Below are positions 3 through 31,097 of a stretch of DNA of 31,277 bases, piece by piece. This DNA comes from a virus. Position numbers and translations under genes: made by a program. A model generated the notes under the pieces. That model saw nothing but the letters and a program-made list of their open reading frames with translations, ran no database searches and had not been told where the DNA came from. Position 1 is the stretch's first letter, and every line of letters begins with the position of its first letter. The DNA is taken from positions 1 through 31,277 of the IMG/VR virus record IMGVR_UViG_3300030673_000032. One strand, written 5' to 3'.

Positions 3-224
3 ACTACCATCTTCCTGTCGCCTTGTTACAGCTTCATTGATTATAGTCAGGCGATTGGTCGCACCTACCGCAACGGACAGACCAGTAAGTGTACGTTCTA
101 CCACCTGCGCGCCGCACACACTATTGATACCTCGATTTACGAAGCCTTGAGCGAGAAGCGAGACTTCGACGACAAATTAACAGATGTCCCGCCTCAAAGC
201 TGGATGTCATTTATGGGAGAATGA
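3..224 (+). CDS. SNF2/DEAD-like superfamily 2 helicase, C-terminal fragment
   Basis: This reading frame is open from the left edge and encodes the last 73 residues of a helicase whose start lies outside the window. The diagnostic stretch is SQAIGRTYRNGQ (motif VI, Q..GR..R), which contributes arginine residues to ATP hydrolysis in SF2 enzymes. It is followed by a TID..IYEALSEKRDFDDKL tail typical of phage SNF2-like DNA helicases. The likely role is DNA unwinding or translocation during phage replication or recombination. The stop is followed at once by the next start (226) in a closely packed operon. The family call is secure from motif VI and the tail, but the subfamily cannot be settled because motifs I to V are missing. 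Confidence 0.82.
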   Translation, partial: TTIFLSPCYSFIDYSQAIGRTYRNGQTSKCTFYHLRAAHTIDTSIYEALSEKRDFDDKLTDVPPQSWMSFMGE

Positions 225-225
225 T

Positions 226-435
226 ATGAGTAAAGTTGAACCAGTCATCAAACAGACTGTCGGCGGGAAGTTTCATGCTGCTGGAGGTGTGGTGGATACA
301 CTTGAAGATGCGTTCGATAGGTGTGACGCCAAGTGTAGGGGGTGGAGCAACTACTTCTTCGTATTCCCCAGCATAAACGGCATTCGTAATGAAATATGCG
401 GAGACAGGGCATACATAAGGGAGGCACTAAAATGA
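226..435 (+). CDS. Small hypothetical protein, 69 aa
   Basis: I do not recognise this protein. The start at 226 is preferred over an upstream in-frame ATG at 184 because GGGAGA lies 6 nt upstream and because it just clears the helicase stop. The product is soluble, mixed alpha/beta in look, with two cysteines close together (CDAKC) near the middle and an aromatic NYFFVFP strand. The next gene overlaps it by the four-base ATGA, indicating translational coupling. Confidence 0.7.
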   Translation: MSKVEPVIKQTVGGKFHAAGGVVDTLEDAFDRCDAKCRGWSNYFFVFPSINGIRNEICGDRAYIREALK

Positions 436-644
436 CCGACATGTTAAACGTAGATATTCACACAGATGGAACAATTCGAGCGCGAAAAGGCTTCAAGACA
501 TTCGCTGGAATGGTTTGGCATTTATGGCTCATCAACCGCCGATACAATAAATTGGGCGTGAAGGGGGCTTTTACAGTCAGGCTTCCATTACCTGAAGGTG
601 GTTTTGAAACTCGATATCAAACTGATTGGAGGAAGTTCAAATGA
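432..644 (+). CDS. Small hypothetical protein, 70 aa
   Basis: Function is unknown. The start at 432 has a strong AAGGGAGG seven bases upstream and shares ATGA with the previous stop. The product is basic and aromatic (WHLWLINRRYN in the middle, YQTDWRKFK at the end) with no membrane segment. Its end overlaps the next start by ATGA. The position in the early operon suggests a host-interaction or accessory replication role, which is inference only. Confidence 0.7.
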   Translation: MTDMLNVDIHTDGTIRARKGFKTFAGMVWHLWLINRRYNKLGVKGAFTVRLPLPEGGFETRYQTDWRKFK

Positions 645-967
645 AAGACTTTGAGCCACGACCATTTCAAAAGGAAGTGTTAGACCGCATAAAATCAGAG
701 GTGAAAGTACCGCCTATGCTGTGGCCGCCACGAGCGAATCGCACCTACTACGGTGTTGACATTGGCGAAAAGGACGGCGACCATACGGTTATTAGCCGCG
801 TCGAGACGAACGGTAGGGGTGGAATACTGTCAATCGTATTCGATGAGTATAACTCCCTACCAGATTACAAATGGTATCGCAACCCGATTAAATGGTGGGA
901 GTGGCGTCGCTTTTGGCATAGAATCGCAAAGCGTAATGGGAAATATCCGTATGGACGAGCTAAATAG
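641..967 (+). CDS. Hypothetical protein with a GVDIGEKDGDHT motif, 108 aa
   Basis: The start at 641 follows GGAGG by 7 nt and overlaps the preceding stop (ATGA). Around residues 37-55 the segment YYGVDIGEKDGDHTVISRV resembles the first strand of RNase H/RuvC-like folds (G-x-D-x-G followed by a D-x-T turn), as seen in many phage hypotheticals. The remaining acidic residues of a nuclease site are not obvious in this short protein, so I do not claim nuclease activity. The C-terminal third is rich in Trp, Arg and Lys and could bind nucleic acid. Its 3' end overlaps the primase-like gene by 17 nt. Confidence 0.65.
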   Translation: MKDFEPRPFQKEVLDRIKSEVKVPPMLWPPRANRTYYGVDIGEKDGDHTVISRVETNGRGGILSIVFDEYNSLPDYKWYRNPIKWWEWRRFWHRIAKRNGKYPYGRAK

Positions 968-1673
968 CCTCAAGAGCTTTCAGTGGCTTGGCTCGAAAAA
1001 GGGTCGCTACACTACTGACAGGTGGTCACTTGATGAAAACTGTCGTCTACTGAAGGATAGTAAAGCCACGGCAAACGCCCTGCTCACGGGAATCCGTCAG
1101 CTCGACAAGACGGGTCGGTGGAAGCTGATAGCGGTTGACCTTGACAACAAGACAAATTGGAGTGAGGTGATTGAGGCATATAAGGCTCTCGATTTACCGC
1201 AGTCGCTCACGGTGCAGACACCGAGCGGTGGCTACCATATATTCTTTTGGATATTGAAAGACATCCCCGCGCAGAATATCAACGACACCCGACACTGCAA
1301 GAACTTCGAGCTCAAAGGCGACATGAGTAATATCACTGCGCCTGGGAGCATGTTTTCGAGCGGTGAGAGCTACGTTATAGTGCGAGACGTCCCGATTGCT
1401 AGGCTACTGGCTGGAGAGGCATACAGGCTGTGCAAGCATCGTCAGGAGCCACGCATGCCACACGTGCCGAGTGATTTCGTGCCTGAAGCGGGCGATATTG
1501 ACGCTATGGCACACCATTTGGATGAGCGAGCACGCAAAAACCCTCGTGGGTGGCAGATACGTTGCCCATACCACGAAGATAGTCGTTCGAGCGCTATACT
1601 ATTCCATAGTGGATGGCTGTATTGCAGCGGGTGTGGTGAGAAGAAACAACTAGTAATAAAGGAGATGACATGA
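951..1673 (+). CDS. Primase-polymerase (AEP/PrimPol)-like protein with C-terminal CHC2-type zinc motif
   Basis: The 240-residue protein has archaeo-eukaryotic primase signatures. A D-x-D pair lies in IAVDLD (D63, D65) for metal binding. SGGYH (92-96) supplies the nucleotide-binding histidine. An FELKGD segment (119-124) followed by ITAPGS and SYVIV matches the third acidic motif region of phage prim-pol domains, with Glu120 where Asp is usual. Near the end C205-x2-H208 and C225-x2-C228 form a DnaG/CHC2-like zinc motif, here at the C-terminus rather than the N-terminus. The likely role is RNA or DNA primer synthesis for phage replication, probably with the SF3 helicase encoded at 27203-28597. 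The start at 951 is chosen from GGGAA nine bases upstream; an ATG at 936 is possible. Confidence 0.75.
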   Translation: MDELNSLKSFQWLGSKKGRYTTDRWSLDENCRLLKDSKATANALLTGIRQLDKTGRWKLIAVDLDNKTNWSEVIEAYKALDLPQSLTVQTPSGGYHIFFWILKDIPAQNINDTRHCKNFELKGDMSNITAPGSMFSSGESYVIVRDVPIARLLAGEAYRLCKHRQEPRMPHVPSDFVPEAGDIDAMAHHLDERARKNPRGWQIRCPYHEDSRSSAILFHSGWLYCSGCGEKKQLVIKEMT

Positions 1674-1774
1674 AATCAACCATTAACCAAGTAGCAACCT
1701 ACATCGCCTTCGAGTTCGGAATGGACAAAGAAGACTTAATATATATACTAACACTTTTAAAAAATAAACAGTGA
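1670..1774 (+). CDS. 34-residue small protein between primase and zinc protein
   Basis: A short gene with AAAGGAG placed 6 nt before ATG, overlapping the primase stop by ATGA and ending in a GTGA overlap with the next start. The product is MKSTINQVATYIAFEFG followed by an amphipathic MDKEDLIYILTLLKNKQ helix. No family is recognised. The exact gene packing and good ribosome binding site argue that it is translated. Confidence 0.6.
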   Translation: MKSTINQVATYIAFEFGMDKEDLIYILTLLKNKQ

Positions 1775-1971
1775 GTAAAATAAACATCTGTCGCTCAAAA
1801 GTACGGTATACCTCTGAGAAATCTGCTCAAAGGGCGGTTAAGGGGCTGTCTTGGGAATATAAGACCGAGTTCGAGTATTACCGCTGCGGAGAGTCAAAAC
1901 ATTTTCATCTGACCCACAAGAATGTGGACGAAAGGATTGGTCATGGTAACAAATTACAAGGAAGTAGCTAA
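1771..1971 (+). CDS. Small zinc-ribbon-like phage protein, 66 aa, GTG start
   Basis: The product has a C-x2-K start, YTSEKSAQRAV helix, then YYRCGESKHFHLTHKN. This pattern (Cys, Tyr, helix, Y.C, HLT) is widespread in small phage and plasmid proteins, where the Cys/His residues are thought to bind zinc. Here the second CxxC is reduced to C-G-E-S, so metal binding may be weaker. The GTG start lacks its own ribosome binding site but overlaps the upstream stop (GTGA), implying coupled translation. It overlaps the next gene by 29 nt. Confidence 0.6.
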   Translation: MSKINICRSKVRYTSEKSAQRAVKGLSWEYKTEFEYYRCGESKHFHLTHKNVDERIGHGNKLQGSS

Positions 1972-2188
1972 GGAACTTGGTTGTTCATTCCGAATTGGTA
2001 GATGGGGATTTGCAAATCCTATGAAGTTAGTGCGCTACTATATAATGCGGCTTAACGGAAGATATGATTACCCCAAACCATTGCTGCATATACCGCTAGA
2101 TGGCTGGACAACAGACCCAAACAAAATAATTGAAGCCCTGGCCAACGACCCTGCATTCTCTATAAAGTACGGCGAAATCAAGAACTAA
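1943..2188 (+). CDS. Hypothetical protein, 81 aa
   Basis: Not recognised. The start at 1943 is preferred over 1922 because AGGA lies six bases upstream. The protein begins with a short helix (TNYKEVAKELGCSFRIGRWGF) that could be a helix-turn-helix, followed by RYYIMRLNG and a C-terminal segment about residues 50-81 rich in Pro and Asp. It ends about 30 nt before the pentapeptide gene. Confidence 0.6.
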   Translation: MVTNYKEVAKELGCSFRIGRWGFANPMKLVRYYIMRLNGRYDYPKPLLHIPLDGWTTDPNKIIEALANDPAFSIKYGEIKN

Positions 2189-2219
2189 CCCCTTAACCCA
2201 ACAATAAGGAGTAATAGAA

Positions 2220-2930
2220 ATGACAAAAGCAATTAAGATTGAAATCACCTCACGATGGTTCGTAGACAAAGTACTCTTTAGCTATGAGTCTGACGATAAT
2301 AGTATGAAGAAGACACTTGAGGAAGCCCAAAATAGTGGTGCCAACCTGCGTGGTGCCGACCTGTATGGTGCTGACCTGCGTGGTACCAACCTGCGTGGTG
2401 CCAACCTGCGTGGTGCCGACCTGTATGGTGCTGACCTGCGTGGTACCAACCTGCGTAGTGCCAACCTGCGTGGTGCCGACCTGTATGGTGCTGACCTGCG
2501 TGGTGCCGACCTGCGTGGTGCCAACCTGTATGGTGCCGACCTGCGTGGTGCCGACCTGCGTGGTACCAACCTGCGTAGTGCCAAGAACGCAGATTATGCG
2601 ATTGCCCTCACAAGAATCCTCCCAGAGGGAGACATTATCGGCTATAAAAGATGTCGAGATGGTAAGATTGTCAAACTTCTCATCCCAAAAGAAGCGAAGC
2701 GGTCACATGCCTTCGAGCGAAAGTGCCGAGCAGAGTTTGCCGAGGTGCTAGAAATCAGCAAAGGAACACGACAGCTAAAAACTGCTATTAGTAATTACGA
2801 CAGTAGCTTTAAGTTTAGGGTCGGTGAGACAGTACGACCAACCACTCCATACGACGATGACTGGATGAACGAATGCTCTACGGGTATTCACTTCTTCATC
2901 ACTAAGCTAGAAGCTGAGAAATACGTATGA
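2220..2930 (+). CDS. Pentapeptide-repeat protein with DUF5758-like C-terminal domain
   Basis: The 236-residue protein has a 40-residue lead (KIEITSRWFVDKVLFSYE), then 16 tandem pentapeptides of the A(D/N)L(R/Y)G type (about residues 41-121), which form a right-handed beta helix. The region 127-236 contains IIGYKRCRDGKIVKLLIP, RKCRAEFAEVLEI and ECSTGIHFFITKLEAEKY, which I recognise as the DUF5758-type domain often fused to phage pentapeptide repeats. Some pentapeptide proteins (Qnr, MfpA) mimic DNA and bind gyrase, but function is unproven for this type. AAGGAG lies 8 nt before the start. The stop overlaps the next start (ATGA). Confidence 0.85.
   Translation: MTKAIKIEITSRWFVDKVLFSYESDDNSMKKTLEEAQNSGANLRGADLYGADLRGTNLRGANLRGADLYGADLRGTNLRSANLRGADLYGADLRGADLRGANLYGADLRGADLRGTNLRSAKNADYAIALTRILPEGDIIGYKRCRDGKIVKLLIPKEAKRSHAFERKCRAEFAEVLEISKGTRQLKTAISNYDSSFKFRVGETVRPTTPYDDDWMNECSTGIHFFITKLEAEKYV
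2335..2583 (+). repeat. 15-nt tandem repeat array inside the pentapeptide gene
   Basis: About 16 copies of a CTGCGTGGTGCCGAC-like unit. A higher-order 60-nt period is visible: the blocks at 2341-2400 and 2401-2460 differ by a single base. Because the unit is a multiple of three, other frames also stay open across the array, which creates spurious overlapping open frames. Confidence 0.95.
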
Positions 2931-3280
2931 TTATCACCGAACTAAAACCTAACCAAGTATTCGTATTTGGTGCTAATGCAGAGGGAAACCATGGTGCAGG
3001 TGCGGCGAAACAAGCCTATGATAACGGCTGGACTAAATCTGGTCACTCTAAAGGCTTGATGTGGCAATCCTTCGCCATCAACACGATGAGCGGTAAGGAA
3101 GTGATGATAATGGGACTAAAAGACCTCGCCATCACCGCCTATAAGAATCCTGCGCTAGAGTTTCTCCTTACACCAATAGGAACGGGTATCGCTGGATATT
3201 CACTCGAAGAACTAGAGGAAATGTTACCCGACTTTCCCGACAACGTTATTAAGCTATGGAAGGATGATGAATCAGTATGA
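2927..3280 (+). CDS. A1S_2505-family phage non-structural protein, macro-domain-like
   Basis: The 117-residue protein carries VFVFGANAEGNHGAGAAKQA near residues 11-30, GLMWQSFAI, and TPIGTGIAGYSLEELEEML near 82-100. I recognise these as a small, widely distributed phage non-structural family. The two glycine-rich loops resemble the ligand-binding loops of macro domains (N-A-N...G-G-G and IGxGxxG), suggesting binding of ADP-ribose or a related nucleotide. That is inference. It is coupled to the pentapeptide gene upstream and to the next gene by ATGA overlaps. Confidence 0.7.
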   Translation: MIITELKPNQVFVFGANAEGNHGAGAAKQAYDNGWTKSGHSKGLMWQSFAINTMSGKEVMIMGLKDLAITAYKNPALEFLLTPIGTGIAGYSLEELEEMLPDFPDNVIKLWKDDESV

Positions 3281-3522
3281 GTAAACAATCTGAAGAAACT
3301 CCCGTAATGTGGAAACTAGTTGAGATTCAAGAGACGTTCTACAAGGCAAAAGATGGAAAGGTTTATTGGAAGTGGCGGTTTGCGACTAAGAAGAGGTGGA
3401 ACTATCGTCTTACGGCTATGATGGACACCCCATATGTAGTCCTAAGGGCTATTGCAGGTATGCCTCACCCCCTCGTACACAGTCCAGAGAGTATTAAAGC
3501 AAGGGTAGAGAAAACACTATGA
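3277..3522 (+). CDS. Hypothetical protein, 81 aa
   Basis: Function not recognised. Trp- and Lys-rich N-terminal half with YKAKDGKVYWKWRFATKKRW (about residues 22-41), then a short helical end. No cysteines or membrane segment. It overlaps both neighbours by ATGA, so it is part of the same translationally coupled chain. Confidence 0.65.
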   Translation: MSKQSEETPVMWKLVEIQETFYKAKDGKVYWKWRFATKKRWNYRLTAMMDTPYVVLRAIAGMPHPLVHSPESIKARVEKTL

Positions 3523-3614
3523 CCCGCCAAGAAGCCCTCACCCAAGACAACCTCAACGCCCAAGTAGATATAGAATTAAGCATAATGAACGGAGAACAAG
3601 ATGCAGACAATTAG
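3519..3614 (+). CDS. 31-residue candidate small protein
   Basis: A short open frame starting in an ATGA overlap with the preceding stop. The peptide is MTRQEALTQDNLNAQVDIEL followed by SIMNGEQDADN, predicted helical and acidic. The upstream AAGGG/GTAGAG is a moderate ribosome binding site. Its 3' end overlaps the next gene by 14 nt. Continuous gene packing supports it, since otherwise there would be an unusual 78-nt gap in this operon. Confidence 0.5.
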   Translation: MTRQEALTQDNLNAQVDIELSIMNGEQDADN

Positions 3615-3870
3615 AACAGCAGTGGTATTTCGTACCGAGGCAAAGAGCCTAAAGAGCGAAGTCGATACAGCTAACTATAACGAGAGTGACGTACCCCAGT
3701 TTGAGATATGCGTCTTCTCTGATGGTAGAGTTGCCCATAGATGGCTCGTTGGTGCTGGTAGTTCCGTGTGGTGGGATAAGCTCGAAGACCTATACAGAGT
3801 CCACATTTACAGTCACCCCGATTATGGCACAAAAGTTGTATGGAGTGACGGAGAGATTGAAGAGCTATGA
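3601..3870 (+). CDS. Hypothetical protein, 89 aa
   Basis: Not recognised. GGAG lies eight bases before the ATG. The protein looks mostly beta (PQFEICVFSDGRVAHRWLVG, DYGTKVVWSDGEIEEL). It overlaps the next start by ATGA. Confidence 0.65.
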   Translation: MQTIRTAVVFRTEAKSLKSEVDTANYNESDVPQFEICVFSDGRVAHRWLVGAGSSVWWDKLEDLYRVHIYSHPDYGTKVVWSDGEIEEL

Positions 3871-4262
3871 ATCCTAACCCTACCACACCCAAGACGATAC
3901 ATCAGAAACTAGACACTAACACCATACAAACATATTGTTCATGTGGTGAGAAGTTTATGTATTTAAGCGATTTTGAAAAGCATATTGCACCTACCGCGCT
4001 AGAAAAGACGATACGAGAATGTCTCAATGAATTGCTCTCAAGCGTAAGTGGTGCGCCGTCTCACTGGGAGTATACACCAGAACTTGATGAGAAGATTGAC
4101 CAGGCTCTCGCAGAAATTACACAGATAGAGGAAGAGGCAGTCGGGAAAGATGAAGTTGAAGATACTGATTTATCAAAAAGCGCAAAAAGCCGATGGGGGG
4201 TACGCGCAAGGAATCGAGTTCGTGCTGAGACACGAGCTCGCCTGGAGGCACGAAGAGGATGA
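3867..4262 (+). CDS. Hypothetical protein with partial zinc-finger motif, 131 aa
   Basis: Near residues 23-40 the segment YCSCGEKFMYLSDFEKHI looks like a shortened C2H2 finger (Cys-x-Cys ... His), but a fourth ligand is not obvious. The middle is helical and acidic, and the C-terminus from about residue 108 is very Arg-rich (RWGVRARNRVRAETRARLEA), a likely nucleic-acid-binding tail. It sits in the overlapping early operon. No function is assigned. Confidence 0.6.
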   Translation: MNPNPTTPKTIHQKLDTNTIQTYCSCGEKFMYLSDFEKHIAPTALEKTIRECLNELLSSVSGAPSHWEYTPELDEKIDQALAEITQIEEEAVGKDEVEDTDLSKSAKSRWGVRARNRVRAETRARLEARRG

Positions 4263-4663
4263 GTAAACCTATGACACAAGATACTCGAAGTACGTTTGAA
4301 GAGACTACTCCATCATTAGACAATGAGTTGCGAGAGAGACTCGGAGATGAGGACTGGAAGTATACCGATAAGCCCGCTCGAATTGAATCCCTCATCCAAA
4401 AAGCCCGTGAAGAGGCAGAGATTGATGCACGAAAGGCTGGCTATATCGACGGGATTGCATCAGACAAGAGGTCTTTGCAACAACTAGCCCTATCATCTAC
4501 TGTAAAAGCACTAGAGGATGTGCGGATGTATGCCCTTGATTGTACGTTCGGATGCAACTTTGAGAGCAGTCGCACCGAGAAAGCAATACCAATCGCCTCA
4601 ATCGAGAGTCGCATATCGTACTACTCCGCTGAACTCAAGAAGGCTAAGGGGGAGAAGAAATGA
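4259..4663 (+). CDS. Hypothetical helical protein, 134 aa
   Basis: Not recognised. Predicted largely alpha-helical, highly charged, with two central cysteines (LDCTFGCNF) and a Lys-rich end. It shares ATGA overlaps with both neighbours. Confidence 0.6.
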   Translation: MSKPMTQDTRSTFEETTPSLDNELRERLGDEDWKYTDKPARIESLIQKAREEAEIDARKAGYIDGIASDKRSLQQLALSSTVKALEDVRMYALDCTFGCNFESSRTEKAIPIASIESRISYYSAELKKAKGEKK

Positions 4664-5295
4664 GAGTCCTAATTGCCTGTGAATGCTCGGGAAGGGTGCG
4701 CGAGGCATTCCGTAAGTTAGGGCATGATGCTTGGAGTTGCGATATTCTCCCATCGGATGATGACTCACCGTATCATATCCAGGGTGACGTATTAGAACAT
4801 CTTGACGAAGGTTGGGATATGATGGTGGCTCACCCACCTTGCACGTATCTGTCCTATGTAGGCAATAGGCACTGGAATAAACCTGGACGCGCAGAATTAC
4901 GTGCAGATGCTATGAAGTTCTTTATGGCGCTAATCAATGCACCGATACCCAAAATAGCGGTAGAAAACCCACTCGGTGAGCCGTCAAGAGCATACCGAAA
5001 GTATGACCAGATAATTCACCCATATTACTTCGGAGACCCATACCAGAAACGCACTTGCCTATGGCTTAAAGGACTGCCGTTACTCAAATGGTATAAGGAG
5101 CAAGCTATCAAGCCCGAACCATTATTCTTCCTAAAAACGACAGGGAAGGCAATAAATTGGGTTGAAGGAATAGCGGGAATGAGTGCTAAAGACCGCCAGA
5201 AAGCACGCAACACAACATTTCAGGGCATTGCTAATGCTATCGCAGCACAATGGGGTGTTGAGGCTACTAAAGATATTACGAAGGAGAACTCATGA
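4660..5295 (+). CDS. Orphan DNA cytosine-methyltransferase-like protein
   Basis: The 211-residue protein has the order of motifs of C5-cytosine methyltransferases: a SAM-binding start (VLIACECSGRVREAF, residues 3-17, in place of the usual FxGxGG), an acidic strand end (CDIL, 27-30), the catalytic-type PPC (59-61), and ENP (102-104). It then has a KRTCLW segment near 130-135 in the place of motif VIII, and FQGIANAIAAQWG (187-199) like motif X. It is shorter than typical enzymes and lacks an obvious target-recognition domain, so sequence specificity is unclear. No restriction endonuclease is nearby. A likely role is modifying phage DNA to avoid host restriction. A non-DNA methyl acceptor cannot be excluded. 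Confidence 0.7.
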   Translation: MRVLIACECSGRVREAFRKLGHDAWSCDILPSDDDSPYHIQGDVLEHLDEGWDMMVAHPPCTYLSYVGNRHWNKPGRAELRADAMKFFMALINAPIPKIAVENPLGEPSRAYRKYDQIIHPYYFGDPYQKRTCLWLKGLPLLKWYKEQAIKPEPLFFLKTTGKAINWVEGIAGMSAKDRQKARNTTFQGIANAIAAQWGVEATKDITKENS

Positions 5296-5585
5296 CCGAA
5301 GACCAGATTGACGCGATGAAATCTCTTTCACTCGAACAAAAAGAGATGATGAAAGCAAACATCCGCGAAAAGGCTACGTTGAGGTTTGAAGATTTCAAGG
5401 GAAGATGGTATGCGCCATGTTGTGCCGATGATGCCTTTCAAATAGACGAAACTAATTGGTTATTTGCGTACAATTTCAACCCTGCGTGGGCAAAGTTTGA
5501 AACATACGACTCTTTTGAAGACCTAAAAGAGGCAATGGGCAGTGACGCAGAGCAACTTAAGGTTACGAAGGAGAAAATGGAATGA
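5292..5585 (+). CDS. Hypothetical protein, 97 aa
   Basis: Not recognised. A helical acidic lead (residues 1-32) is followed by RWYAPCCADDAFQIDETNWL with adjacent cysteines and aromatic residues. It overlaps the methyltransferase stop and the next start by four bases on each side. Confidence 0.62.
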   Translation: MTEDQIDAMKSLSLEQKEMMKANIREKATLRFEDFKGRWYAPCCADDAFQIDETNWLFAYNFNPAWAKFETYDSFEDLKEAMGSDAEQLKVTKEKME

Positions 5586-5770
5586 GCAAAAAGTTTAAAC
5601 CGTACAGACCATATCTCGCGCTGTACCTTAACCTTGGCTTTATGAGCCTCGGTACGCAGTTAATGTCATACGCAAATGAACGTAACGTATTCAACTACAT
5701 CATGCTTGAATGGAAGTTCTTTAAATGGGGCGGGAAGTTCAATCTTTATAAACCAGGGAGGGATTACTAA
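5582..5770 (+). CDS. Hypothetical aromatic-rich small protein, 62 aa
   Basis: Basic and aromatic (FKPYRPYLALYLNLGFMSLG), with one short hydrophobic stretch at about residues 12-30 that is marginal for a membrane segment. ATGA overlap upstream and TAATG overlap downstream. Function unknown. Confidence 0.6.
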   Translation: MSKKFKPYRPYLALYLNLGFMSLGTQLMSYANERNVFNYIMLEWKFFKWGGKFNLYKPGRDY

Positions 5771-6406: not shown

Positions 6407-6432
6407 AAGAGAGCCCTCACGCGGGGCTCTAC
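6407..6432. terminator. Bidirectional intrinsic terminator between convergent arms
   Basis: Perfect 7-bp stem AGAGCCC (6410-6416) / GGGCTCT (6424-6430) with a 7-nt loop. Read on the minus strand it is followed by CTTTTTAT, an excellent U-tract. On the plus strand it is followed by ACTTTATATT. It sits exactly where the early and late operons converge. Confidence 0.85.
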
Positions 6433-8013: not shown

Positions 8014-9006
8014 TTACTTTTTAAATCCGCTGAATATGCCAGCTAGGAAGTCGGTGATTGCTTTCACTATCTTCTCTAGCGCTGATAGTCGTACATCTTG
8101 CTCGGTATCTTTTGTCATCGTACCGACATGTACTATTTCATCTGTTGCAGGAATGTTACTTTGACCAGATACAATTCGGTTCGTCTCTACATTATCTGTG
8201 TATGTAACAGTGTACGTAGTAGTTGATTTTCCGTTTACCCCTGTCTGTGTAACCTTAGATGTACTAGACAATATCGTATTGTCGGGGACGGCTACGACGT
8301 TGAATCGAATCACGTCAGTCTTAGTTTCAGTCTTGGTCGTAATCACTGGAGCAGGAGCTGGAACAGGGGTAGGTGCGTTGTATGATGGATTGGCAAACTT
8401 CTTCCATGCGACCGAATCGCCATAGAAGATATTGCAGTCTAAGTCGCCTCCGTATCCATCGAGCCTTCCCTTTGATGTCCATTGCCACATCGCATATCCG
8501 CCAGCCCAGTTCACATCTGGTAGTGAGCCTGCGTTGCTCATGTCGTAGTTGTAGCCTACATTGTTATCACGGTACTGGGCGACCCATAGACCGTAGTTAT
8601 TGTAGATAGAAGACCAATCATACTGGTTGACGACAGATGCGCTCATATAGATAAGCGGACGAACGCCAGTACGGGCATATACATGGTCGAGCCATTGTTT
8701 AGCCCAACTCACATTACTCTTTGGCTCAACTTCCCAGTCAAGCACGAGGATAGCTTCTTTGACATAGCCTTGTATATTATCTACGAAGAAGTTAGCCTCA
8801 CTTATTGGGTCATTTCCATCTGGTCGGGCAAAGTGATAAACGCCGAGCAGCTTTCCCGCAGCCTTAGCCTCTGCGTAGCTTGCAGCGCAGTCGGAGTCAA
8901 CGTATCCTACACCTTCAGTAGCCTTGAATATAATAAAGTCAGCCCTAATAGTAGCATCTGGTAGTCCAGCTTGCCACTTTGATGTATCGATTCCTAGTAA
9001 TGACAT
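8014..9006 (-). CDS. GH25 muramidase endolysin with G5 domain
   Basis: The 330-residue enzyme begins with GIDTSKWQ (Asp7) and has FIIFKATEG, GVYHFARP, and the catalytic pair in LVLDWEVE (Asp90, Glu92), then WVAQY and MWQWTSKGRLDGYGGDLDCN. All are hallmarks of glycoside hydrolase family 25, which cuts the MurNAc-GlcNAc bond of peptidoglycan. A Pro/Ala linker near 212-222 leads to about residues 235-300, where STTTYTVTYTDNVETNR and TDEIVHVGTM fit a G5 wall-binding domain. The last 25 residues form an amphipathic helix (LEKIVKAITDFLAGIFSGF). No signal peptide is seen, so release depends on the adjacent holin. AGGAGG precedes the start and is partly duplicated. Confidence 0.92.
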   Translation of the reverse strand: MSLLGIDTSKWQAGLPDATIRADFIIFKATEGVGYVDSDCAASYAEAKAAGKLLGVYHFARPDGNDPISEANFFVDNIQGYVKEAILVLDWEVEPKSNVSWAKQWLDHVYARTGVRPLIYMSASVVNQYDWSSIYNNYGLWVAQYRDNNVGYNYDMSNAGSLPDVNWAGGYAMWQWTSKGRLDGYGGDLDCNIFYGDSVAWKKFANPSYNAPTPVPAPAPVITTKTETKTDVIRFNVVAVPDNTILSSTSKVTQTGVNGKSTTTYTVTYTDNVETNRIVSGQSNIPATDEIVHVGTMTKDTEQDVRLSALEKIVKAITDFLAGIFSGFKK

Positions 9007-21995: not shown

Positions 21996-22820
21996 CTAGC
22001 CGATGCTTGAGATACCCTTACGCTTTGGAGTCGACACGACACAAGTGTACATGTAGAGACAGAGCAAGAGGCTACCGAACGCAGCTGCACTTTCGCCGAC
22101 CTTTGAGTCGTCGAGGAAGCGAGGAGCGGCGACAACATCTGGGTTGACCAAGATAGCGCCAGTCGAAGCAGGCATGATATCTGCTGGGACTTCCTTCACC
22201 TTAACACCAGCAAGCATACCGATGTCACCAGTGCGAAGGCTTGATTCCATACCAGCGGTAAATGGATTCATTCGGGCACTGTTGCGGATGCTGTCTGCCG
22301 TAGTCGTGTTCACAAATGCAATGACGTTCTTGAAGAGACGAGCATTGACAATGAATCCACGAGCCTTTAGTAAGTCAGCGTACCCATCAGTGGTTGCAGT
22401 AACTTTTTGGCTGGTAACGACGGCAATAGCCGCAAGAATCGCAAGACGGTAAGCGTCGATGAGTGGTACGAGCTGCTCGGCAACAATAGCGTGAAGGACT
22501 TTTCCGCCTTCGGTAATACTGTTGTTCGTTGCAATAACTGTACGGTCAAGAAACTGCTTAATATCTTTTTGCTGGTCGAGGGTGTAGGTGTTGATTGTCG
22601 AATCAACATTTACGATTCCACCAATTTGCGTACTAAAGGTTTGGCTTGAGTCGTGGGTCGTGATTGCACCTGCGGTGACAACTGTACGAACCTTAACTAC
22701 TTTTGAACCCTTTTCAAACTTGATTTCTTTGTTGTTTCCTTCAAGTTCTTTTGTGAAGCTTTCCTCATCGAATGGTTGGTCGATGACTGGGCTATAAATC
22801 TCGGAAGCTGTAATAGCCAT
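21996..22820 (-). CDS. Major capsid protein
   Basis: The 274-residue protein follows the scaffold-type genes. It has the expected arrangement of a small HK97-fold capsid subunit: an N-terminal arm, an extended-loop-like region (EIKFEKGSKVVKVRTVVT), then a long spine-helix region (YTLDQQKDIKQFLDRTVIA). A helix with YADLLKARGFIVNARLFKNV follows, and a late beta part, MLAGVKVKEVPADIMPASTG, that matches the 'G..V.E....P' closing pattern of many capsid proteins. It is a separate transcription unit with a strong promoter (22967-22994), a leader of about 140 nt, and hairpins on both sides, fitting its need for high expression. AAGGGG precedes the start by eight bases. Confidence 0.8.
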   Translation of the reverse strand: MAITASEIYSPVIDQPFDEESFTKELEGNNKEIKFEKGSKVVKVRTVVTAGAITTHDSSQTFSTQIGGIVNVDSTINTYTLDQQKDIKQFLDRTVIATNNSITEGGKVLHAIVAEQLVPLIDAYRLAILAAIAVVTSQKVTATTDGYADLLKARGFIVNARLFKNVIAFVNTTTADSIRNSARMNPFTAGMESSLRTGDIGMLAGVKVKEVPADIMPASTGAILVNPDVVAAPRFLDDSKVGESAAAFGSLLLCLYMYTCVVSTPKRKGISSIG

Positions 22821-24947: not shown

Positions 24948-26384
24948 TCAAATGAAAACAGAAAAATTATTATTTGAGTTTGATTTCCTCCCTCCTAGTG
25001 TCAGTTCGGCCTCCATAAACTTGTTAAATCTCTCTCGCTTAGCCTCTTTCCCCTCGGCTTTTTCTGGGTCTGACCTGACATGAGACGCTGAGAATATGTT
25101 TGCTGATGTAATACGATATTTAGCGATAGCCTGTCCCATATAGCAGAGTGAATCCACGGTGTCAGAATAACCACCGACGTGAGTCGGGTGCGACGACCAG
25201 ATATGTTGCCTATCGTTCCACTCGTACTCAAGCTTGTCGAGACAGGTGACGATTCGAGTAAGTCGCTCGTCGATTCGTAAGCCAACAAAAATACGACGAA
25301 GGTGGTTCAACTTGTCTTCGACGCGATTTGGCTTGTTAAGGACAATCGTATTGGTAATTCCCTCTTTGGTAAGCACCTGCTTATATGACTCGTTGCGCGC
25401 ACCCTTCACGTGGGCGGCATCATGCGGCAAGAAGTGGGTATGGACGTTCCATCCCCGCTCAATCCACTCGCCGATGTACCACGTCACGTCCTCGTTGCGG
25501 TTCTCAATATGGTCAAGCACTGTTGGAAAACCGTTCATGTCAACCTGAAATAGAATAATAGAGGTGTAGTCGGCGTTTCCTAAGTCCCACGCAGCGTAAC
25601 AGGGATGCTCTTTGTCAATGTTAAGCATAGAGACGCGCCCCTCTTCCTTCATAATCTTGGCGAGCGCACCGAAGACAGACCCGCTATTCGGACTAATCCA
25701 GCTCGTCATGTACTCCTGCTGATAGAGGGCATCGTTGCCATACTTGTTGATAATTTTCAACCGTTCGGTTTCAAGGAATCCCTTTGCCATATACTGCGCT
25801 ACCTCTGACATACCACAGTGCATATTGCTCGCGTAGGCGAACTCAGGGTGAGCAAGCGCAAAGTTCCACTCCTCAAAGAAGTGATTTTTGCCACGAGGTG
25901 TAGAAATCATTACGCGCCAACCGCCTGTCTCACCAAGCATGGCGGTAATGAACTCGATTGAGGCAGGGTTCAGGACGGCATACTCGTCGAAAACCACACC
26001 CATAAGTCCTGTACCGACGAGCTTATCGGCCTTATTGATACCGACCAGCTTAATCACTGAGCCATTAGTCAGCTCAATCTCCATCTTGGCGCTATTCTTT
26101 CGTACCACCATATCGTCTGGTATCATGTCGAGGAACTTTATCCCCTTAGAGGTCATAGCTATCCAAATGTCATTATAGGCGGTGGAGTAGTTATCGAAAC
26201 AATACCAATATGTGCCAGGCTTGCTGATTGCCTCGCGGATGAGCAGCGTCCACGCAAACAGCGATTTTCCCGCGCGACGGCTCCAACAGAGCACTATGAA
26301 GCGGATACCGTTATCAAAGGCCTTGAGCACCGCCCTCTGATACGAGCGCAGTACAATGCCCGCGCCGATTTTCAAAACGCTCAT
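24948..26384 (-). CDS. Terminase large subunit (TerL)
   Basis: The 478-residue packaging motor has a Walker A motif in LCWSRRAGKS (residues 32-41), Walker B in LMGVVFDE (127-134), and a coupling motif STPRGKNHF (161-169). The C-terminal RNase H-like nuclease follows, with AAWDLGNADYT (Asp267), LPHDAA (Asp322) and a late GGYSDTVDSL (third acidic motif). It cuts concatemeric DNA and pumps it into the prohead through the portal. The start shares ATGA with the stop of the zinc-finger gene, and AAGGAAG lies just upstream. Confidence 0.95.
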   Translation of the reverse strand: MSVLKIGAGIVLRSYQRAVLKAFDNGIRFIVLCWSRRAGKSLFAWTLLIREAISKPGTYWYCFDNYSTAYNDIWIAMTSKGIKFLDMIPDDMVVRKNSAKMEIELTNGSVIKLVGINKADKLVGTGLMGVVFDEYAVLNPASIEFITAMLGETGGWRVMISTPRGKNHFFEEWNFALAHPEFAYASNMHCGMSEVAQYMAKGFLETERLKIINKYGNDALYQQEYMTSWISPNSGSVFGALAKIMKEEGRVSMLNIDKEHPCYAAWDLGNADYTSIILFQVDMNGFPTVLDHIENRNEDVTWYIGEWIERGWNVHTHFLPHDAAHVKGARNESYKQVLTKEGITNTIVLNKPNRVEDKLNHLRRIFVGLRIDERLTRIVTCLDKLEYEWNDRQHIWSSHPTHVGGYSDTVDSLCYMGQAIAKYRITSANIFSASHVRSDPEKAEGKEAKRERFNKFMEAELTLGGRKSNSNNNFSVFI

Positions 26385-26575: not shown

Positions 26576-27228
26576 GCCACTGCCTCAGTCTCGATATACC
26601 AGACGCCATCGTCACCCTGTTTGGCCTCGTATGGGGCCACGTCAGCCCAGCTTTCGAGCAATACGGTATCTTCGCCGTCTAGGCGTATCACGTCAGCCAC
26701 GCAGCCGTCTAGGTAGTCAAATAACATAGTTATCGCACCGAGATTAGAGCCGCGCATCGCAATACCGTACAAATTGGCCACCATGACCTCAGCCACAGTG
26801 TATCGGTCCTTGTCGTCAATCACGTTATAGGAATACTCACGCTCTTTTTCGCCTATTTCATCGAGCATTTTGCGCAAAAGTATGCCAGGGGCGTTAGACT
26901 CATCTATGACAAGCTTGTTCTCAAATAAGCTCACCGTCGAGTCTACCTCGTCATAAACTCTGTCGTCTATCAGTGCAGCCTTAGCTTTTCCGATAGCGTC
27001 GGGGAACACGGTTCGCACAATCGTCCGCTTAATCACAATTACCTTCTCTGGTTTGCCAAGTATGCGTTCAAACGCCAGCTTTATAGCCTTCACGTCGTCC
27101 TCTTCGCAGCAAATGCGCAAAAGCTCTGCGACGACTGCCTGATTTGAGTTCAACTGAGACACTGAGCGACGAAACGTGAGGTATTTTTGCGGAAGAAAAT
27201 CGTTAAAAGAGTTTTGGAGCTTCTTCAT
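26572..27228 (-). CDS. Candidate terminase small subunit or TerS-like protein
   Basis: The 218-residue protein has NQAVVAELLRICCEEDDVKAIKLAFERILGKPEKVIVIKRT (about residues 29-69), a helical block ending in ERILGKPE that resembles the oligomerisation region of small terminases. The rest is helical and acidic, unlike known small TerS. Placement two genes upstream of TerL favours a packaging role. AGGGGGG lies 8-9 nt before the start, and it overlaps the helicase gene by 26 nt. The call is moderate; a regulatory protein is possible. Confidence 0.45.
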   Translation of the reverse strand: MKKLQNSFNDFLPQKYLTFRRSVSQLNSNQAVVAELLRICCEEDDVKAIKLAFERILGKPEKVIVIKRTIVRTVFPDAIGKAKAALIDDRVYDEVDSTVSLFENKLVIDESNAPGILLRKMLDEIGEKEREYSYNVIDDKDRYTVAEVMVANLYGIAMRGSNLGAITMLFDYLDGCVADVIRLDGEDTVLLESWADVAPYEAKQGDDGVWYIETEAVA

Positions 27229-28597
27229 GGTAATATCCCCCCTTTAGTTTTTCGCCATACTCAGTCCAGTCGGTGTCGAGAAAATTACGGCCGTACTGCC
27301 GAGATAACTCAGCGAATCCTGACCTCATTTCTTCTACCGTCTCTTTCGTAAGCATAAATCGTTGTGTACCCTCATACGCATATTTGTATTCTTGATAGGT
27401 CAGCACGCGACCCTCTTCTACACACATCTTCCCATAAGTGTTAGCTTCTTGCAACCACAAAATCCAGCCGTACATCTGATACTCGTCAATCGGTGGGCGA
27501 GTAGTCTCTCCTTTGGCTAATTTTATGGCGCAGCCGACAGCGTAATTGAGCCACGCCTGCTTATCAGCCAGAATCATCCGCTTCATCTGACCCCCATCGG
27601 CCCGTGGGCTGATGTAGGTGTAGAGACAAAACCTCACTCGGTCAACAAGTGACTGCTCGAACATCATCGTGCTTGGCGCGTTGGAAATCACCTCAATAAA
27701 CCCATAATTGGTCGTCTGGTAAATCTCCGAGCCTTTCACCTCGACCTGAATCGGGTCGCCGCTCGCCATCAAGTGCAGCGTGCCGTAGTTCTCATTGTTC
27801 TGGTTTTTGGCCCCCTTCGCATCGGCATCATATAGGTAAGTGGTATTGTCCATATGTTGGGTGTAAAATCGCCCCCAGTTGCGAGATAGCGAAAATACAC
27901 CAGCTCCCGAGCCTAAGACCTCGGCCAGTCCTTCAGCTAGGGTGCTTTTGCCCGTTCGGCTCTGACCGAAGGTAAATAATAGCCCGTGATTGCCAATTAG
28001 TGCCGAGCCGACGCTCCAGTCGCGCACACGCTGTTGGTGCTCATCCATCGTGTCATACCACTGATTCCATGCAACCCCAGGCTCATATTCTGGGAGATAA
28101 TTCAGCTTCGAGCTTCTTGTCGTGGGGCTTGTAAGGAACCGCTCGTCGGCAAAATCGAGTTCGCCCGTGAATCCGTCGAGCACGCAATTCCCCATCTCGA
28201 AGTAGCGGCGGTTGTCAAACTCAATCTCTGGCGCATACACCTGAAAGTAGTCCCAAAGCGCCTGTGCTCGCTTTGTTGACCAGTTCGACTCCTGCAACTC
28301 AGGGTAGGCTGCCATCGCATCGCGCCAAAACTCCACCTGCTCGCCGCGTCGGTACTGTTTCCACTGACAGTTGATTCTGACAGCAAGGCCATGTTCGCTA
28401 CGGCGCAGGTAAAGTGGGGACTTTCGCCCGTTTGAACAGGTGAAGTTGTCAATCACTGCTCGATAAAACCATTGTAATGTGTCGCCGTTCTTCACGGTCT
28501 CGGGCAACACTGGCAACTCATCACTCGGCGTAGACTTGATGGCCTTAATGTCGTCCGCGTTCCGCTTCTTGAGCTCCTCCTGCTGTTGATTAGGCAT
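27203..28597 (-). CDS. Superfamily 3 (D5-like) replicative helicase
   Basis: The 464-residue protein carries D5/P4-type lead sequence (NCVLDGFTGELDF, residues 137-149), Walker A GQSRTGKST (211-219), Walker B in TYLYDADAKG (253-262), SF3 motif C in ISNAPST (304-310), and a candidate arginine finger in VDRVRF (318-323). It is a viral-type hexameric helicase. Normally an N-terminal primase is fused to it, but here residues 1-130 show no primase motif, and a PrimPol-like protein is encoded separately at 951-1673. It overlaps the next gene downstream and lies in the late-strand operon, unusual for a replication gene. Confidence 0.85.
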   Translation of the reverse strand: MPNQQQEELKKRNADDIKAIKSTPSDELPVLPETVKNGDTLQWFYRAVIDNFTCSNGRKSPLYLRRSEHGLAVRINCQWKQYRRGEQVEFWRDAMAAYPELQESNWSTKRAQALWDYFQVYAPEIEFDNRRYFEMGNCVLDGFTGELDFADERFLTSPTTRSSKLNYLPEYEPGVAWNQWYDTMDEHQQRVRDWSVGSALIGNHGLLFTFGQSRTGKSTLAEGLAEVLGSGAGVFSLSRNWGRFYTQHMDNTTYLYDADAKGAKNQNNENYGTLHLMASGDPIQVEVKGSEIYQTTNYGFIEVISNAPSTMMFEQSLVDRVRFCLYTYISPRADGGQMKRMILADKQAWLNYAVGCAIKLAKGETTRPPIDEYQMYGWILWLQEANTYGKMCVEEGRVLTYQEYKYAYEGTQRFMLTKETVEEMRSGFAELSRQYGRNFLDTDWTEYGEKLKGGYYHEEAPKLF

Positions 28598-29246: not shown

Positions 29247-29569
29247 AAGTTCTCTCCTAAATATTTTATTGGGTTTTCTGCTACGACCATTTGCTGTATG
29301 TGGTATTGCCACATAGGTAGGTGCGGTGAAACATGGCGCATCACTCCTACTTCAAGCGACACTGGGTCTATCCATGTATTCTCTCCCCACAGTGCTTTGG
29401 CAAAGTCGTGAGAATAGATATATGCTCGCGGGTCCGTGCCCTCTATAATGAACTTGGTATTTCGGCGTTCAATCTCCAGCGGGTCGACTCCAAAAACTAT
29501 TGGAATCCATCCACTATCAAGGGCCTTCTGTATCGCTCGTGCTAAAATCTCTTGGTTGTTTTCATTCAT
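29243..29569 (-). CDS. Hypothetical phage protein, 108 aa
   Basis: Contains IYSHDFAKALWGE, HVSPHLPMWQYHIQQMV and NPIKYLGE, a pattern I have seen in small early or middle phage proteins of unknown function. The ATG at 29569 has no clear ribosome binding site, so the transcript may be leaderless or start close by. An upstream in-frame ATG at 29587 exists. It is the first gene of the minus-strand arm, next to the divergent regulatory region. Confidence 0.6.
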   Translation of the reverse strand: MNENNQEILARAIQKALDSGWIPIVFGVDPLEIERRNTKFIIEGTDPRAYIYSHDFAKALWGENTWIDPVSLEVGVMRHVSPHLPMWQYHIQQMVVAENPIKYLGENL

Positions 29570-29636
29570 GTGTCTAGCATAGCACACTCGTAAACATAAT
29601 ACTAGGGTTGTTTTGAATTATATCTTCCGAGAGTGT

Positions 29637-29686
29637 GGGGGAGCATATATATAATATATCTCTCCTGTGCCTTGATACCCTCCCCC
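29637..29686. repeat. G/C arms flanking an AT palindrome
   Basis: GGGGGAG (29637-29643) is the inverse of CTCCCCC (29680-29686). Between them lies a TATATATAATATAT-rich near-palindrome bounded by GGAG and CTCC. It could be a cruciform-forming site or RNA hairpin between the minus-arm promoter region and the plus-strand promoter. Confidence 0.45.
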
Positions 29687-29693
29687 CCCATGC

Positions 29694-29722
29694 TTGACTA
29701 TTGCCCTAATATATTTTATTAT
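29694..29722 (+). promoter_or_regulatory. Plus-strand sigma70-type promoter P1
   Basis: TTGACT, exactly 17 nt, TATTAT. A GCCCTAA lies in the spacer. Transcription would run through a TACAT/ATGTA-rich palindromic stretch and the AT-rich origin candidate. Confidence 0.7.
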
Positions 29723-29869
29723 GCATTTATATTATTGTATATCATACACTTACTAGGTCGATTGATATGTACGCATGTATAGTTACATACATGGCTACAT
29801 GCATGGGTGTATGGTATACACTAACTACATATTAGGACATAATCGCATATATATGGTATAAAGTGTTCT
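29723..29869. other. Noncoding stretch with nested TACAT/ATGTA dyads
   Basis: GCATGTA (29773-29779) pairs with TACATGC, with further ATGTA/TACAT and GTGTA/TACAC dyads around 29770-29820. Two extended -10-like TGGTATA strings (29812, 29854) face the plus strand. No credible reading frame occupies it. It is probably regulatory. Confidence 0.4.
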
Positions 29870-30060
29870 ATTTTTGTTCTAGTTGATTTTATATTTCCTT
29901 TAAAAAAGAAGAATAGGAAAATAAGTAAATCAAAAAATTGTCTTTTATCTGTTATCTTCGTTATGATACCTAAATAATTATTTATTTTTTTTGCCAAAAA
30001 TAACGAAAAAATCTTTTCATAACATTTTCGATGTATTTTACGCAACACCACTTATCCACA
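29870..30060. other. Candidate replication origin: AT-rich stretch with DnaA box
   Basis: About 180 nt of very AT-rich sequence with long A and T runs ends in TTATCCACA (30052-30060), a perfect match to the consensus DnaA box. A promoter at 29694 points into it, and divergent operons flank it. A single box and no visible iterons make this a candidate only. The phage could borrow host DnaA, although it also encodes an SF3 helicase and a primase. Confidence 0.45.
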
Positions 30061-30131
30061 GTCTCACCCCTGTTAAATTACATAATCCAATGTCAAATAT
30101 CCATAATCTCTAAAAATAAACACGTTATGCA

Positions 30132-30160
30132 TTGACTTCTATACCCTAAAGGACTATTAT
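30132..30160 (+). promoter_or_regulatory. Plus-strand sigma70-type promoter P2 of the structured RNA
   Basis: TTGACT, exactly 17 nt, TATTAT, the same hexamers and spacing as P1, with ACCCTAA in the spacer. Predicted start near 30166, exactly where the first helix of the structured RNA begins. Confidence 0.8.
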
Positions 30161-30164
30161 AGGA

Positions 30165-30739
30165 ACATAACCAAAGCAAAGGTTACAGACGAAAAGCACC
30201 TACACAATCAATCAGACCACTGAGCACCGAACATTGACTATATGTCAGTTCACCGCCGAAAACTTGATTGACCAGTAAGAGCCACGGACTAACTACGCAA
30301 AGGTTATGTCATCGCACATTTACAATTTAAACCCCATCGACATCATCGACGACACGCAGGGCTATAAGAGGCGAGACGGGCACAAAGATACCATCGCTTT
30401 GACCTACATCATGACACTAGGCGCATGACCCTCTTATATAATGGCGTGACGAGCACGGGGGTTAAAACTGAGTCACCACGCTGCCGACAAGCCCTGCAAT
30501 TGGGCGAGAGCGTGGTGACAATATCTATATCAGTAGGAGGGCGCACAACTTTTCGCCACGCCTAAGCACCACAGTCTGTATGACGAGCGGTGGCGCTAAT
30601 CAATAACCCAGTAGTATTAGGGTGGGCAGGTGGGACAATCTGAGTTGTGGTCAGCCTACTGGTATAGATAACAGAGAATCGCAAGCAATTGGGCGTCATT
30701 AGGTGACGACTTGCAAAGCAGTTGCTTGCGCCTCTGTTA
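30165..30739 (+). ncRNA. Large multidomain structured RNA (candidate, about 575 nt)
   Basis: By hand, five contiguous helical domains can be drawn. (1) ACATAACC (30165-30172) pairs with GGTTATGT (30302-30309) and encloses TCAATCA/TGATTGA (30208-30214/30265-30271) and a GAAC..GTTC hairpin. (2) 30326-30335 pairs with 30458-30466 (one bulge), enclosing TATAAGAGG/CCTCTTATA (30363-30371/30430-30438) and two hairpins. (3) A perfect 11-bp stem GTCACCACGCT/AGCGTGGTGAC (30472-30482/30509-30519) with an inner GCCC/GGGC. (4) A 16-bp helix with a single G-U, 30522-30537 with 30655-30670, enclosing several hairpins. (5) AACAGAG/CTCTGTT with CGCAAGCAA/TTGCTTGCG (30670-30738) and a CGTCA/TGACG tip. Promoter P2 precedes it exactly. 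Size, ornate folding and phage setting resemble GOLLD and ROOL RNAs, but membership was not tested. Confidence 0.7.
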
Positions 30740-30902
30740 CTGGTGGTAATGGCGTGAGCATCCTACTCGTAGCAACGAGAGAGATATGGGCTTAGCGGTT
30801 ATCACTAGTAACATGGGTAATATATGCCATACGTTCCGTGTATACGGGTGGACGTATGGTATACCCTAATAATATTACATAACCCACGCAAAGGGGGCAT
30901 AC
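30740..30902 (+). other. Leader with hairpins before the 30903 gene
   Basis: CTCGT/ACGAG (30766-30779) forms a tetraloop hairpin. CCATACGT (30827-30834) pairs with ACGTATGG (30852-30859) around an inner CCGT/ACGG, extended by GGGTA/TACCC (30815-30819/30862-30866). GGGTAATAT (30815-30823) could alternatively pair with ATATTAC and ACCC at 30871-30886, so two states are possible. It ends in AAAGGGGG, the ribosome binding site of the next gene. It may be the 3' part of the structured RNA or a regulatory 5' leader. Confidence 0.5.
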
Positions 30903-31097
30903 ATGGCGGTACGTAATCAACACGTGAGGCGGTCGAGCCGATACGTCCACAAAACTATTGACGGCGTGCTATACGCCTTTTCGGGTGATACGTTCGTCGG
31001 TATATCACGAGTACGCTACATGGCTGAGAAGGCCGTGAAGGGCGAGTTTACGCTTGACGGAATCATTACCGAAGAGTTAGCAGAGGCGGATAATTAG
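30903..31097 (+). CDS. Small basic protein, 64 aa, first gene of the plus-strand operon
   Basis: AAAGGGGG lies 7 nt before the ATG. The sequence starts MAVRNQHVRRSSRYVHKTI, then GVLYAFSGDTFVGISRVRYMAE. It is not recognised. First gene after the structured region, a classical place for an early takeover protein. Confidence 0.65.
   Translation: MAVRNQHVRRSSRYVHKTIDGVLYAFSGDTFVGISRVRYMAEKAVKGEFTLDGIITEELAEADN

Follow-up and report, generated by a model that had tools for sequence, protein, structure and literature searches.

A stretch of about 740 nt (30166-30902) in the genome of an uncultivated phage is apparently untranslated and is structured, and our reading of it, to which we give a probability of roughly one half, is that it opens the transcript of the first early operon as a long 5' leader and acts in cis. 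The genome is the viral record IMGVR_UViG_3300030673_000032, all 31,277 bases of which are referred to here as the window. Comparison with relatives indicates that the structured RNA is real and conserved, as is its promoter; Rfam contains no match to it. Most likely the leader is specific to one clade, independent of the gene that follows it and equipped with competing helices, and its action is possibly put-like. One argument for action in cis is that position and promoter are kept in nine genomes. Against it stand the small size of the comparison, which includes only seven divergent long RNAs, and the length itself, 740 nt being a high price for a simple switch in cis. Intrinsic terminators downstream in the early operon are, moreover, no more frequent than in shuffles, so there is little call for antitermination.

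Promoter, extent and relatives of the proposed leader

The leader lies between two sets of genes. The minus strand carries genes for a major head protein (21996-22820), a terminase large subunit (24948-26384) and a primase/helicase-like protein with DUF5906 (27203-28597). Early genes on the plus strand run from 30903 to the right end and occupy 3-5770 at the left end, where the window opens with a helicase C-terminus. The stretch between these sets (29588-30902) holds no convincing gene. The original prediction had said the same of the structured region, and indeed its longest plus-strand reading frames with ATG, GTG or TTG starts encode only 40-46 aa, with none seen to be shared by the relatives. 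Since an independent contig (L002) has the same sequence in this region at 100% identity, the leader sequence is not an accident of assembly. The features discussed below are collected in Table 1.

Table 1. The leader, its putative structural elements and its flanks, in order of position in the window.
Feature	Position	Strand	Remarks
AT-rich block with DnaA-box-like TTATCCACA (30052-30060)	29898..30131		Kept in relatives, upstream of promoter
Sigma-70-type promoter TTGACT-17-TATTAT	30132..30160	+	Found at this position in nine genomes of the family
5' hairpin TAACC-AAAGCAAA-GGTTA	30168..30185	+	Start of predicted transcript
Box 1, GCACCTACACAATC	30196..30209	+	Second-best window site for the box profile, 16.5 bits
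Internal GCAAAGG-loop hairpin TAAC-TACGCAAAG-GTTA	30290..30306	+	Second hairpin and box module
Box 2, GCACATTTACAATT (TTAACAATT family)	30314..30327	+	Best window site, 19.9 bits; next outside leader 12.3
11-bp perfect stem-loop (30472-30482/30509-30519)	30472..30519	+	Only in this genome
16-bp helix (30522-30537/30655-30670) around branched domain	30522..30670	+	Only in this genome
Helix A (30669-30676 and 30680-30688 with 30722-30730 and 30732-30739)	30669..30739	+	Strand a 30669-30688 with 30722-30739; core CGCAAGCAA/TTGCTTGCG; two-sided changes in relatives
Helix B	30730..30818	+	Strand x 30730-30750 with strand b 30798-30818; 20/21 pairs in window
14-bp hairpin (30823-30836/30850-30863)	30823..30863	+	After helix B; predicted fold
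3' GCAAAGG-type hairpin CCC-ACGCAAA-GGG	30883..30895	+	Short stem, inferred; overlaps ribosome-binding region of first early gene
First early gene	30903..31097	+	64 aa; no family match; unrelated to relatives' first genes

The textbook promoter that was predicted to fire into this region is present, and it is conserved. All leaders of the family begin with a TTGAC-17 promoter followed by a hairpin whose loop reads GCAAAGG (GCAAGGG in L032), and in most relatives another hairpin of this type stands directly ahead of the first ATG. The hairpin is also present right after other early promoters of the family, before the ribosome site and ATG, so it appears to be a general, family-wide 5' UTR element of early mRNAs. 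Such further early promoters with the hairpin are at 14008 and 18456 in L004 (reverse strand), 14794 in L014 (reverse strand), 2861 and 7132 in L039, and 340 in L051.

The predicted folding is much better than that of shuffled sequence. From 30166 through the ATG after 30902, the predicted minimum is -257.8 kcal/mol versus -206.4 +/- 7.2 for 100 dinucleotide shuffles (z = -7.1), and 30150-30780 alone gives z = -4.8 with 20 shuffles. As controls, six stretches elsewhere in the window have z-scores in the range of -0.7 to +0.9; that of the AT-rich block upstream is -1.5. The six long leaders of the relatives have z-scores of -1.9 to -4.1, which makes the range for all seven long RNAs -1.9 to -7.1, with coding controls at about 0. 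The helices originally placed at 30165-30739 are there, but the structure does not end at 30739 and reaches to about 30902. The 11-bp perfect stem and the 16-bp helix are likewise present as described; they are without counterpart in the relatives, and folding is their sole support.

Relatives were gathered from a viral collection by searches with the primase, terminase, helicase and 5' motif. Six divergent genomes have a long leader at the same place, measuring 669 nt in L038 (whose sequence is the same as that of L005), 515 in L039, 505 in L008, 489 in L014, 413 in L004 and 389 in L009. The 5'-motif and helicase searches returned further leaders only from this known family. As whole domains differ, the seven RNAs were compared by pairwise blastn rather than in a full-length alignment; L004 and L014, for example, are 86% identical over 225 nt. 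The label "giant" in the original prediction is an overstatement, because the relatives reach only 390-670 nt and length varies as whole domains come and go.

In L024 and L032, two genomes further removed, the AT-rich block, the promoter and the 5' hairpin are present, and no more than 50-54 nt lead up to the first ATG. As the large RNA is missing from this layout of promoter, hairpin and gene, it appears to have been either gained in one clade or lost in others. The two genomes also provide a natural comparison of genomes with and without the RNA.

Perhaps the structured region belongs instead to a replication origin. The conserved AT-rich block next to it, with its TTATCCACA motif, is a candidate origin or regulatory region, and the transcript or the folded DNA strand beside this DnaA-box block could serve in priming or origin activation. 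However, the RNA is transcribed in the direction leading away from the block and so lacks complementarity to it. In addition, L024 and L032 keep the block without a large RNA, and the G-U bias described below favours a plus-strand RNA rather than folded DNA. This makes a role at an origin distinctly improbable. The block also has repeated CTGTTA words, it is conserved in L008 and L024, and TTATCCACA occurs twice in L024.

Covariation and competing helices

The original prediction had itself named compensatory changes among relatives as its test, and helices A and B do show two-sided changes. Helix B, which is 21 bp long, had been missed. In the window, L008, L038 and L039, 96.4% of its cells are paired, a percentage that is partly built in since the alignment was put in register from the longest helices, and two-sided changes occur in 12 of the 21 pairs. 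Its covariation score is 0.794 versus 0.329 in shuffles (reached in 0/500), and is at most 0.27 when the strands are slid. When the 3' domain is aligned in full with MAFFT and without guidance, the picture for A and B together is similar: 94% paired, two-sided changes in 11 of 27 pairs, and a score of 0.500 versus at most 0.17 when slid. Helices A and B as such are found in these four genomes; L004 and L014 have an analogous but different pair, and L009 has one long helix. In L004 and L014 all substitutions within the named helices preserve pairing and three are two-sided, although with two sequences only the shuffle test has no power.

Could long inverted repeats of this kind arise in neutral intergenic DNA, by chance or by mutation? 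Template switching can correct quasi-palindromes and so produce compensatory changes without selection, and the complementary strand of the leader also folds well. Nevertheless, the same helices lie at the same place in diverged genomes, and loop motifs and the promoter are conserved with them. G-U pairs provide a further clue. In a DNA palindrome, G-U and A-C are expected to be about equally common. When helix B is read on the plus strand, G-U occurs in 14 cells and A-C in one, and this excess favours a plus-strand RNA over folded DNA, albeit in related sequences that are not independent. Unselected palindromes are a highly improbable explanation. With its relatives, conserved promoter and compensatory changes, the prediction of a structured non-coding RNA that follows a genuine promoter is supported.

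The outer parts of helices A and B exclude each other because both use strand x, which pairs upstream with strand a, extending helix A, or downstream with strand b to make helix B. The nested 8+9-bp double stem of the original prediction is therefore present as helix A, but it competes with the longer helix B. When the transcript is folded by partition function as it grows, the same order is predicted in 6/6 genomes: part of x pairs with a, and then x pairs mostly with b. In L004 and L014 a single change in x has its counterpart in a as well as in b, such that all three strands change together, a three-strand covariation that rests on these two sequences. The alternative pairing of a with x shows few changes and has weaker covariation support than that of x with b. 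In the same two genomes, strand b includes the 5' arm of the GCAAAGG hairpin ahead of the first gene.

Boxes, known RNAs and possible modes of action

Each copy of the box in the window genome follows a GCAAAGG hairpin, which makes two modules (30168-30209 and 30290-30327). By eye the box, GCAYNTTAACAATT or GCACATTTACAATT, recurs two to four times in the long leaders. The box scores in Table 1 come from a scan of both strands of the 31 kb with a profile trained on the family's own boxes, these sites included.

What if these boxes are boxA elements? In this special case of a cis-acting leader, NusB-S10 would bind the TTAACAATT box beside each hairpin and make RNA polymerase resistant to Rho across the untranslated leader and the early operon, as in nut-type antitermination. 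The core TTAACAATT is among the few 9-mers outside the GCAAAGG hairpin that every one of the seven RNAs keeps with no more than one mismatch, and permuted letters of the E. coli boxA reach the observed match in 0/3000 trials. The order of hairpin then box, at the untranslated 5' end of a long operon and with a core like TTAACAATT, recalls lambda nut and the boxB-boxA-boxC of rrn leaders. However, the boxes (GCAYNTTAACA or GCACATTTACA) deviate at position 3 and at 4 or 5 from the boxA consensus GYTCTTTAANA (PMC5725501). That consensus is the published one and may not be that of the host. In single RNAs the likeness lacks significance when a shorter boxA query of 12 bases is used, and it was noticed before it was tested. 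The leader further differs from nut and rrn in being far longer, in having long-range helices and in that no N-like protein is identified. On balance, boxA-type antitermination is improbable. Within one Patescibacteria class, several 16S leaders have a boxA-like YTCTTTAACA, but it is not the phage box and settles neither the host nor the boxA question.

Membership of a known family of large RNAs had also been suggested; such an RNA would assemble into a cage or dimer. GOLLD, ROOL and OLE have Rfam models, and GOLLD and ROOL, both known from phages, are usually found near tRNA islands (PMC12286853). The likeness consists of size, a large elaborate fold of several hundred nt, and phage origin. 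In contrast, Rfam 15 at gathering thresholds gives no match in the whole window or in the six relatives' loci, and permissive searches (E up to 10 in 29560-30920 of the window, up to 1 in the relatives) return unrelated chance matches only. Nor does the window have a tRNA island. The relatives are without a conserved sequence block as long as in these families, and leader position and variable domains set the RNA apart. Membership is barely credible. The one dubious ARAGORN match in the window is a tRNA with an undefined anticodon (27931-28021) on the opposite strand to the primase-like gene, within it, and is almost certainly false.

The original prediction had described an RNA with its own promoter. 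The promoter is there, but no terminator-like site and no T-run terminator was found on the plus strand of the window's leader up to the first ATG, and the RNA appears to enter the first early gene as its leader, which does not speak for a stand-alone RNA. The first gene after the leader differs in every genome compared, and these genes are mutually unrelated; the leader is therefore not a switch for one gene. The simplest reading is a leader that acts in cis on the early operon.

The main rival is that the structured part is cut from the early transcript and acts in trans as a stable phage RNA (a decoy, an inhibitor or a regulator of a host factor), the first gene merely lying downstream. Length and an elaborate fold would suit such an RNA, as would the lack of a tie to any particular gene, and the two copies of the same hairpin that flank it are possible processing signals. 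What does not fit is that the sequence contains no evident terminator or 3' end of its own, that it changes rapidly, with whole domains lost or gained between relatives (389-740 nt), and that distant relatives do not have it. We consider a trans-acting RNA rather unlikely, though a serious contender.

If the leader does act in cis, it would do so as nascent RNA on whatever early genes follow. Strand x would pair back with a at first, and forward with b once b has been transcribed; in L004 and L014 this exchange could gate the hairpin ahead of the first gene. The likeliest use would be the adjustment of early expression: the leader might modify or pause RNA polymerase in a put-like manner, or it might gate access to the first gene. 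The target may be RNA polymerase, Rho, translation of the first gene or mRNA stability.

By analogy, the closest functional counterpart of the leader is the put RNA. In phage HK022 this RNA has about 70 nt and two stem-loops, and binds the beta-prime zinc-binding domain of RNA polymerase (PMC9378689). Both are nascent stem-loop leaders just downstream of an early phage promoter and serve whatever early genes follow. However, HK022 is a lambdoid phage and its put RNA is short, whereas the leaders here have 390-740 nt and many helices and belong to another phage lineage. Attenuators and riboswitch-type leaders with exclusive helices offer a second likeness, in that one strand pairs upstream or downstream. 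They differ from the present leader, which has no terminator hairpin with a T-run and no fixed downstream gene.

A broader and more tentative proposal, possible though less likely than not, is that these RNAs are a new class of large phage leader in which programmed strand exchange during transcription controls the whole early operon, whichever gene comes first. The RNA would have been inserted into an ancestral layout of promoter, hairpin and gene, and is known so far from one clade of uncultivated phages. Phage early leaders have earlier yielded N/nut and put. If the proposal is true, these RNAs would extend the ways in which phages direct early expression through RNA, here in a lineage that has no cultured members.

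Genomic setting

The terminase is only about 25-30% identical to those of named phages, which says nothing about the host, and blastn of the leader region against named phages gives no match. Among bacterial genomes the terminase has only remote matches (24-29%), so this search yields neither a prophage nor a host. Endolysin matches were rejected as shared-domain matches. The C-terminal stretch alone of the GH25-type endolysin (8014-9006) matches proteins in Patescibacteria genomes, which is a possible hint of a Patescibacteria host but no proof.

Some smaller observations concern the rest of the window. A pentapeptide-repeat protein (ADLRGANLYGADL...) is encoded among the early genes at 2220-2930, and a bidirectional terminator-like stem lies at 6410-6430, between the converging early (plus) and late (minus) gene sets. 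A second conserved stretch at 29645-29722, near the start of the minus-strand genes, is 84% identical to L004 over 80 nt. It contains a TATATATA block, a run of C and, at 29694, a promoter-like TTGACT-17-TATTAT on the plus strand. Finally, L006 and L038 are the same 37,793-base contig, both ends of which fall in the intergenic block with overlapping content, and this suggests that the genome is circular or permuted.
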